Shown here piece after piece: positions 3,193-62,002 of a stretch of 64,000 bases of DNA. The stretch covers positions 176,366 through 240,365 of the forward strand of contig NZ_KI912183.1 of the NCBI RefSeq assembly GCF_000189755.2. The letters are read 5' to 3'. The stretch comes from Desulfotomaculum nigrificans DSM 574 (GTDB lineage Bacteria > Bacillota > Desulfotomaculia > Desulfotomaculales > Desulfotomaculaceae). The position numbers and the translations under genes were made by a program. How positions within the stretch are numbered: the stretch's first letter is position 1; each line of letters opens with the position of its first letter. Under the pieces are notes generated by a model. The model was not told where the DNA came from and did not search any database. It saw nothing but the letters and a program-made list of their open reading frames with translations.

Positions 3193-3441
3193 TTACACAA
3201 AATTTTGTACACTCCCGAAATCTTCCAACAATTTAGCCAAATCTTCGGGGGCTGCTTTAGCCAAAGCAGCCTTTTTATTTTCCTCTTCGATAGCCTTAAA
3301 CACTTCACTGCGATATACTTGTATATTTTTAGGGGCTTCGATGCCGATTTTTACATTATCACTGGCCACGTCCAGAATGGTGATTACTATATTGTCTCCA
3401 ATATGTATGGCCTGATTTTTCTTACGGGAGAGTATCAGCAT
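3193..3441 (-). CDS. csrA: carbon storage/translational regulator CsrA
   Basis: CsrA is a small dimeric RNA-binding protein that represses translation by binding GGA motifs near ribosome-binding sites; in Firmicutes the main known target is flagellin mRNA. The 82 residues start with the family signature MLILSRKKNQAIHIGD, followed by the strands IVITILDV and VKIGIEAPKNIQVYR that form the beta-barrel. The C-terminal tail is somewhat longer than in the enterobacterial protein, as is usual in this group. The ATG lies immediately after the fliW stop (TAAATG), so the two are translated as a unit. Its antagonist FliW is the upstream gene. Confidence 0.95.
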   Translation of the reverse strand: MLILSRKKNQAIHIGDNIVITILDVASDNVKIGIEAPKNIQVYRSEVFKAIEEENKKAALAKAAPEDLAKLLEDFGSVQNFV

Positions 3442-37276: not shown

Positions 37277-37296
37277 GTGATTGTACAAGTTAATAG

Positions 37297-37365
37297 TTCC
37301 GTATATGCTTGAGGATATGGCTCAAGTGTCTCTACCGGGCCGCCGTAAATGGCCTGACTACGGAA
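37297..37365 (+). promoter_or_regulatory. guanine (purine) riboswitch aptamer
   Basis: P1 pairs TTCCGTA with TACGGAA. P2 pairs CTTGAG with CTCAAG around the GATATGG loop; TCTCTACC joins to P3, whose loop holds CCGTAAA; then GACTACGG closes. These are the conserved parts of the purine class (xpt type). The discriminating pyrimidine in J3/1 is C at 37358 (GACTACG), which predicts guanine or hypoxanthine rather than adenine recognition. Ligand binding would favour the terminator at 37454-37508 and lower expression of the permease and the following pur genes. Confidence 0.93.
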
Positions 37366-37453
37366 GGGAAAGTGTACCTAGGGTTCCACAGCCCGCGCGG
37401 GTTGGTTCGGTCCAAGCGGTACAGGCGTTTTACGCTACACCGATAGGGATAAA

Positions 37454-49762: not shown

Positions 49763-51040
49763 ATGAAGATTTTAGTGGTTGGCGGGGGCGGCCGGGAACA
49801 TGCCTTGGTGTGGAAGTTAAGGCAAAGCCCCAAGGTTGATCAAATATTCTGTGCCCCAGGCAATGCCGGTATTAGCCAAATAGCCACCTGTGTTAATATC
49901 CCGGCCGGGGACGTTTATGGTCTGCTTAATTTTGCTCAGCAACAGCAAATTGATCTTACGGTGGTGGGCCCGGAGATACCTTTAACCAACGGTATTGTAG
50001 ATATTTTTGAACAGGCAGGGCTAAAAATATTTGGCCCTACCCGGGCAGCCGCTGAAATTGAGGGCAGTAAAGCCCTGGCCAAAGAAATTATGGCCAAATA
50101 TAATATTCCCACTGCCCGCTATGGTATCTTTGCAGATGCGGCACAGGCCAAAGAATATATCAAACAATACGGTGCTCCCTGTGTGGTTAAAGCAGACGGT
50201 TTGGCCGCAGGCAAGGGTGTTATTGTGGCTATGGATGAAGAGACGGCCCTGGCCGCTGTGGACATTATTATGGCCCAACGGGCCTTTGGTCAGGCTGGGG
50301 ACAAAGTGGTCATTGAAGAATATTTGCAGGGTGAAGAAGTCAGTGTACTGGCCTTTGTGGAGGGCGATACCATTATTCCCATGGTGGCCTCCCAGGATCA
50401 CAAGCGGGTGGGGGATCACGATACCGGACCTAACACCGGCGGGATGGGTGCCTATGCACCGGCTCCCCTGTATACTCCGGAGTTGGCAGAGATCGTAGAG
50501 CGGGATATCCTGCAGCCCACGGTAAAGGCTCTGGCGGCCGAAGGACGGCCTTACCGGGGAGTGCTGTATGCGGGGCTGATGATTACCGATGCCGGCCCCA
50601 AAGTATTAGAATTTAACGCCCGGTTTGGTGACCCTGAGACCCAGCCGGTACTGAGTTTGTTGGAAACAGACCTGGTGGATATTATTGAAGCCATACTGGA
50701 AGGAAGATTGGCCAGCCAACCTGTTACCTGGAAGAATGGTGCTGCCGTTTGCGTGGTGATGGCAGCCCAGGGCTATCCCGGCAATTATGAACGAGGACAG
50801 GAAATTAAAGGACTAAACAACCTGCCCTCGGGAATAGAGGTTTTCCATGCAGGTACCGCTCTCAAGGATGGCAAAATAGTGACCGACGGAGGCCGGGTAT
50901 TAGGGGTAACCGCTGTAGGTACAGACATTGCAGATGCCATTAAGAAGGCCTATCAAGGTGTGGCGGCCATTCACTTTGCCGGTGCCCATTACCGCACAGA
51001 CATTGGGCAAAAGGCACTAGAAAAACTAAAAGGGGCCTAA
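49763..51040 (+). CDS. purD: GAR synthetase PurD
   Basis: PurD ligates glycine to phosphoribosylamine. The 425-residue ATP-grasp protein opens KILVVGGGGREHALVWKL, has VKADGLAAGKGVIVA, the ATP-grasp glycine-rich loop, DHKRVGDHDTGPNTGGMGAYAPAP, and EFNARFGDPETQPVL. The ATG at 49763 is after GGGAGG. It is the last gene of the purine operon: a terminator stem overlaps its stop codon. Confidence 0.98.
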   Translation: MKILVVGGGGREHALVWKLRQSPKVDQIFCAPGNAGISQIATCVNIPAGDVYGLLNFAQQQQIDLTVVGPEIPLTNGIVDIFEQAGLKIFGPTRAAAEIEGSKALAKEIMAKYNIPTARYGIFADAAQAKEYIKQYGAPCVVKADGLAAGKGVIVAMDEETALAAVDIIMAQRAFGQAGDKVVIEEYLQGEEVSVLAFVEGDTIIPMVASQDHKRVGDHDTGPNTGGMGAYAPAPLYTPELAEIVERDILQPTVKALAAEGRPYRGVLYAGLMITDAGPKVLEFNARFGDPETQPVLSLLETDLVDIIEAILEGRLASQPVTWKNGAAVCVVMAAQGYPGNYERGQEIKGLNNLPSGIEVFHAGTALKDGKIVTDGGRVLGVTAVGTDIADAIKKAYQGVAAIHFAGAHYRTDIGQKALEKLKGA

Positions 51041-51051
51041 AACCCCTTTTT
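51028..51051 (+). terminator. intrinsic terminator of the purine operon
   Basis: Arms AAAAGGGG (51028-51035) and CCCCTTTT (51043-51050), loop of seven bases that includes the purD stop codon, with a T run formed by the right arm. Confidence 0.85.
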
Positions 51052-51081
51052 GATTTTTAATGTATCCTTCTAAATTGCAAG

Positions 51082-51182
51082 GTACTTTTGTTATCCTGTA
51101 GTGAACCCCTATCAGAGCACCGCAAGTGAGTCTTAGCACTTTCGGTGCGGAGATCGGGGTGAACGGTGGATAACAGAAGTAC
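51082..51182 (+). ncRNA. candidate structured RNA / 101-nt rod-like inverted repeat
   Basis: Outer arms pair GTACTTTTGTTATCC (51082-51096) with GGATAACAGAAGTAC (51168-51182), 15 pairs with one G-T. Inside, GTGAAC (51101-51106) faces GTGAAC (51159-51164), which gives a tandem G-A pair flanked by Watson-Crick pairs. CCCTATC pairs with GATCGGG; GCACCG (51117-51122) pairs with CGGTGC (51143-51148); AAGTG pairs with CACTT around the end loop. The left 41 bases recur at 61936-61976 with five differences. An intrinsic terminator follows at 51209-51229. Function is unknown. Confidence 0.5.
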
Positions 51183-51208
51183 CCCCAGGCTTGATAAACA
51201 TATGACTG

Positions 51209-51229
51209 AGGGGTTTAGGCCCCTTTTTT
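51209..51229 (+). terminator. intrinsic terminator after the structured repeat
   Basis: AGGGGT (51209-51214) pairs with GCCCCT (51219-51224), loop of four, followed by six T. It is the second terminator after purD and could end a separate transcript of the repeat. Confidence 0.75.
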
Positions 51230-61885: not shown

Positions 61886-61935
61886 GTAAAAAGTAAGTCA
61901 GTAAAATGTAATTTTGTAGGATACAAGTTAGCAAG

Positions 61936-61976
61936 GGACTTCTGTTATCCAGGAGTGAACCCCTATCGGAGCACCG
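61936..61976 (+). repeat. solo left half of the structured repeat found after purD
   Basis: The 41 bases match 51082-51122 at 36 positions, with the blocks CTGTTATCC, AGTGAACCCCTATC and GAGCACCG fully or nearly conserved. No right half that could pair with it follows. As with the first copy, it is placed between the end of a biosynthetic operon and a terminator. Confidence 0.7.
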
Positions 61977-62002
61977 TCAAAACACTTGTATATAAGCAAA
62001 TC

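Follow-up and report, generated by a model that had tools for sequence, protein, structure and literature searches.

The window analysed here, a stretch of 64,000 nt from Desulfotomaculum nigrificans DSM 574, carries a rod-like palindrome between two terminator hairpins in the gap between purD and yerC. On the + strand, the region comprises a left terminator hairpin (AAAAGGGG-CCTAAAA-CCCCTTTTT, 51028-51051) that overlaps the purD stop codon (51038-51040), 29 nt between this hairpin and the rod that form the left end of an element (51052-51080), the rod itself (51081-51183), a right end of 25 nt (51184-51208), and a right terminator hairpin, AGGGG-TTTAGG-CCCC plus T6 (51209-51229). The rod, which the initial annotation had placed at 51082-51182 as a candidate RNA of 101 nt, is real and can be lengthened by one pair; it consists of an outer stem (GGTACTTTTGTTATCC/GGATAACAGAAGTACC), a tandem-G.A internal loop, a 3x3 purine loop and a secondary apical hairpin. 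The stretch 51082-51229 has an MFE of -64.2 kcal/mol, compared with -40.0 +/- 3.9 for dinucleotide shuffles (z -6.21), and none of 200 shuffles was as stable. The two GTGAAC copies on the 5' (51101-51106, +) and 3' (51159-51164, +) sides of the internal loop face each other and, read antiparallel, give GU[G.A][A.G]AC, which confirms the tandem G.A predicted previously, and the terminator said to follow at once corresponds to the terminator-like hairpin with its T-run at 51209-51229. The assertion that pairing is kept through G-T pairs fares poorly in this copy, as the 36 MFE pairs on the + strand include a single G-U. Folding of the 101-nt rod gives -53.0 on the + strand versus -44.3 on the - strand.

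Sequence searches of the same genome, on which its copy numbers rest, revealed about 30 related copies or fragments, mostly partial, including a second, truncated copy within the window that retains the left half only (61931-61985, +) and is located before a pcrA/uvrD-like gene. Three long copies (at 1331, 1166 and 2470 kb) contain about 100 nt more inside the rod. In the alignment with the full-length copy at 1331 kb (L060), both arms of the window copy are intact and a single clean gap of about 108 nt follows GCACCGC at 51123 (junction 51123-51124, +). The rod therefore derives from the full-length form by an internal deletion, which removed the core junction region with both GGA hairpins and left the rod with its secondary apical hairpin. 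The rod aligns with positions 1-214 of covariance model R1 (57.1 bits). In other deletion copies of this genome, all that remains is 46-60 nt from the outer stem, and deletion copies are present in a congener (G003) too, with endpoints that differ copy by copy. No second copy with the window's deletion was seen; thus, the 101-nt form, which the initial annotation had treated as the unit, is not a propagated one, and nothing points to a 101-nt RNA as the selected product. It is very probable that the rod is the deletion remnant of a mobile structured-RNA element and most likely a dead derivative with no function. One could still argue that the rod itself is a selected non-coding RNA, or a purD 3' UTR element with its own function, given its very stable fold, its intact tandem G.A loop and terminator and the better folding of the RNA strand than of its complement. 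We consider this highly improbable, because the rod arose by deletion from a larger conserved RNA and lacks both invariant GGA hairpins, because the endpoints of other deletion copies vary as decay predicts, and because the purD-yerC region of relatives has no 101-nt RNA. The window feature is an ordinary remnant, and the real interest lies in the family behind it.

At full length, members of this family are rods of 213-217 nt in which tandem-G.A loops recur in series and which bear two GGA hairpins. Of the 68 pairs in a 16-copy alignment, 45 have changed on both sides; among 57 distinct sequences, such double-sided changes affect 62 of the 68 pairs, with 94.6% of cells paired (0/500 shuffles), compared with 34-39% when partners were slid by 1-3 columns in the same sequences. 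These changes indicate that the full-length fold is selected, and the arms thus display the covariation that had been proposed as support for an RNA. Both readings offered by the initial annotation, a selected RNA fold and a palindromic mobile element, apply to the family, whose fold covaries strongly and whose unit is mobile, but not to the window copy as such, which has lost the RNA core by internal deletion. The tandem G.A is a family-wide feature whose flanking pairs covary (GYGAAC/GTGARC); inspection of the alignments by eye suggests a series of modules, namely an outer GYGAAC/GTGARC followed by CGAAC/GTGAGTC and CCGAAC/GTTGAGG. The two hairpins with A(N)GGAN loops are present in 51 and 49 of 59 copies, respectively. 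In 34 copies of the congener G003, none of the 340 positions of the two CAGGA loops has changed, while other unpaired positions vary. Among 14 intact G003 copies picked by terminal repeat alone, 10.6 changes in these loops were expected and none was observed (P 3e-5), a very decayed copy (L194) being excluded from the CAGGA counts; its inclusion gives 4 changes versus 13.7 expected (P 0.002). The G003 copies are thus either under constraint or recent descendants of constrained masters.

With the covariance model built here, and with a ceiling on the candidates scored in each genome, the family was detected in at least 55 of 113 genomes of the class and in at least 69 of 398 genomes and 50 of 266 genera across the phylum, often in multiple copies. 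The exact core pattern was absent from IMG/VR viral contigs. Three copies from another congener, G008 (L072, L077 and L080), bear in their outer rod arms tandem units like CCCTAAAGGGCACGAGATA that are matched on the opposite arm, as if the two sides of the stem had expanded in step. RNA relatives of about 260 nt with other terminal repeats (GTAAATGTTCAGTAAAACCGCTA) occur in three genomes (L225-L230 in G049, G057 and G031), and GGA hairpins were not detected in them.

Considering that the elements are mobile and that IS1182 targets hairpins, the palindrome might be a feature of the DNA only (a hairpin or cruciform serving transposition), with no RNA function even at full length. The predominance of Watson-Crick pairs over the family (3397 cells versus 111 G-U) would fit such a reading. 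However, G-U exceeds A-C both over the family (111 to 49) and among single changes within G003 (18 to 7), as expected from selection on the RNA strand, although this ratio is only supportive because the alignments came from fitting to an RNA model. Moreover, the GGA and tandem-G.A loops are conserved on one strand, and lineages with different terminal repeats retain the same core. A role confined to the DNA level is quite unlikely, and selection on full-length copies at the RNA level is clear.

The initial annotation knew no described family with this sequence, which does not hold for the full-length copies: they reach or exceed the gathering score (43 bits) of the Rfam family RF01731, TwoAYGGAY, with 46.7 bits for L002 in the window genome, 61.5 for L073 and 73.6 for L288 (best relative, G220). 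The Rfam search of the window gave no RF01731 match for the window copy, because its core is gone; the only match was a purine riboswitch (RF00167, 83.4 bits) at 37279-37380. As in TwoAYGGAY, the stem of the full-length copies contains tandem G.A and bears two GGA hairpins. Of these features, the two GGA-loop terminal hairpins are missing from the window copy by deletion, and the tandem G.A of the basal stem is present as GTGAAC/GTGAAC in the window and as GCGAAC/GTGAGC and similar pairs in many relatives. The full element differs from the Rfam model in that its outer stem is longer and its terminal ends lie outside the model. TwoAYGGAY was first listed under 'Human gut, gamma-Proteobacteria, Clostridiales', in an article whose main text is silent on mobility (Weinberg et al. 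2010, PMC2864571); in contrast to that listing, the RNA described here is dispersed and multicopy.

Sequestration of CsrA by TwoAYGGAY is a published hypothesis (PMC4333381), according to which the full-length copies would be CsrA-sequestering RNAs and the window copy a non-binding remnant. It agrees with the A(N)GGAN-loop hairpins, which are invariant in G003, with the assignment of RF01731 to the same Rfam clan as CsrB (CL00106), with the presence of csrA within the window (3283-3441, - strand; PF02599, E 5e-24), and with a layout similar to that of the E. coli rrA/B/F sRNAs, CsrA-binding RNAs flanked by dual terminators (PMC8144298). The multiple GGA loops that characterize CsrB/RsmZ are present in full-length copies, but the window copy has no GGA hairpin. 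However, the RNA occurs independently of csrA across 113 genomes of the class (30 with both, 25 with the RNA only, 32 with csrA only and 26 with neither; odds ratio 0.98, P 1.0). Two genomes, G068 (13 copies) and G089, keep a GGA hairpin and csrA was not detected in them; draft genomes could hide csrA, though G068 is 95% complete. In addition, the 260-nt subfamily occurs in csrA-positive genomes, and no GGA hairpins were detected in it. On balance, we find CsrA sequestration rather doubtful, and the only published functional proposal for this RNA is thereby weakened.

The mobility of the family is best seen in G003, in which a 17-nt terminal sequence (CAGACTGTAGACAAAGG) occurs 90 times (reversed control, 0) and a typical element spans 263-266 bp. 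In all 20 model-chosen copies, the left terminator hairpin is repeated on the right, the hairpin-to-rod distances being mostly 28-32 nt on the left and 19-24 nt on the right. Of the 27 repeat-chosen copies whose right end was detected, 23 had a flank similarity above the maximum of all swapped-flank controls, and two of the four misses (L167 and L168) had a misplaced right end and show the duplication in their printed sequences. Nearly every one of the approximately 90 G003 copies resides in a Rho-independent terminator whose whole hairpin has been duplicated on both sides. A likely mobilising enzyme, IS1182-type, was identified in G008, which harbours a 1607-bp insertion sequence (IS) whose ends (CAGACTGAAGACAAA and CAGAGTGTCGACAAA) are the same as those of the G003 element. 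All three examined copies of this IS lie between exact whole-palindrome duplications (21, 26 and 27 bp), and it encodes a 515-aa transposase of the IS1182 family (NF033551, 447.6 bits with a cut-off of 270; PF13751 and PF05598). The same ends, together with duplicated hairpins around the RNA, were also found in distantly related families of this phylum (L286, L287 and L297). We conclude that the RNA probably rides on IS1182-type MITEs. Readings as integron attC sites or REP/RAYT elements were rejected, since the ends belong to a DDE IS.

The IS1182-family elements IS1272 and TnSha1 target stem-loops or terminators without a sequence consensus, and the hairpin is lost (PMC5678879, PMC4923244); a duplicated stem-loop has been drawn as a model outcome (path 6b in Fig. 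13 of PMC5678879). The IS found here resembles them in having a DDE transposase of the same family (NF033551) and a hairpin target that is often a terminator. However, IS1272 and TnSha1 reportedly delete or replace the hairpin with no target duplication, whereas both the IS and the MITE examined here duplicate the whole hairpin, so that an insertion outcome until now drawn as a possibility for IS1182-family elements is observed. Like bacterial MITEs and REP-type intergenic repeats, the elements are short, non-coding, intergenic and multicopy, with terminal inverted repeats and truncated decay copies; unlike them, their interior is a conserved structured RNA that is found in many genera of the phylum and with differing terminal repeats. 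These observations give the Rfam family a concrete biology as a multicopy passenger of terminator-targeting elements, which can number about 90 in one genome.

Hairpin duplication was not found in G019, G049, G057, G031, G024 or G036, and in G005, G019 and G049 this RNA has other ends and lacks a duplicated hairpin, implying that IS1182 is not the only carrier and that the link is not universal. Copies in G007 have hairpins on both sides, but the left and right hairpins mostly differ from each other; the left hairpin of L216 is the same as that on the right of L221, pointing either to recombination between copies or to a misassembly. Promoter-like hexamers were noticed by eye at the left end of copies from G003 and G007 (TTGTAA-18-TATGAT and TTGAAA-17-TAATAA).

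The purD-yerC gap was also compared among relatives, G001 being left out of the empty-site comparison because its contigs are split. In G004 and G005 the gap is empty and has one terminator, and no element lies beside yerC in G002 and G008. In G003 it holds a full element with a duplicated hairpin, and in G006 and G019 it holds remnants of other subfamilies, which shows that the same terminator region has been targeted more than once. The G006 copy (L240) is truncated, and its first GGA hairpin plus T6 now resembles the gap's terminator. The two hairpins that flank the window copy (51028-51051 and 51209-51229) are near-identical but mutually inverted (best inverted local score 33, compared with 13-16 for five other copies of this genome), and their spacings from the rod, 29 and 25 nt, are near those of G003. 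The purD copy is the only one in the window genome with the same hairpin on both sides, as an inverted and not a direct copy; no clear hairpin duplication was seen around the other copies of this genome. The intact right end TAGATAAGCAAACCAAACT, of which the window copy has a diverged version, directly precedes a hairpin-forming stretch at 11 of 11 sites in the window genome, and these stretches are of varied sequence and mostly clear terminators. This subfamily is old, and its terminal repeats are degenerate and do not match CAGACTGTAGACAAA. In the window genome, a search for an IS1182 transposase that is intact and has matching ends yielded only two DUF772 fragments. Because of the degenerate repeats and the absence of an autonomous partner in this genome, extending the IS1182 mechanism to the window subfamily is an inference, namely that an IS1182-type enzyme may also have moved this older, degenerate subfamily.

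Taken at full length, the element is about 265 bp, with short terminal ends around the 213-217-nt rod, and its transcript would adopt a conserved TwoAYGGAY-type fold, i.e., a long, interrupted stem that contains a series of tandem-G.A loops, plus a core junction bearing the two GGA hairpins. Such elements could be inserted at Rho-independent terminators by an IS1182-family transposase that recognises hairpins rather than sequence. With strand joining staggered between the two feet of the hairpin, the whole hairpin may be duplicated and the RNA left between two terminators, which suggests that terminators are tolerated landing sites. The insertion behind purD would later have lost about 108 nt between its arms, probably by slippage across the palindrome, yielding the 101-nt rod without the core. 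It is conceivable, though we propose it only tentatively, that these elements belong to a Bacillota-wide mobile class in which the conserved unit is a structured RNA and not a transposase, with the same 213-217-nt core placed on different terminal repeats (IS1182-type and others) and spreading by terminator insertion with duplication of the whole terminator, and that the RNA is needed for the spread or persistence of the element. Elsewhere in the window genome, the right half of one element (L004, 2029261-2029359) is fused to the 3' end of a uvrA-like gene, apparently providing its stop codon.
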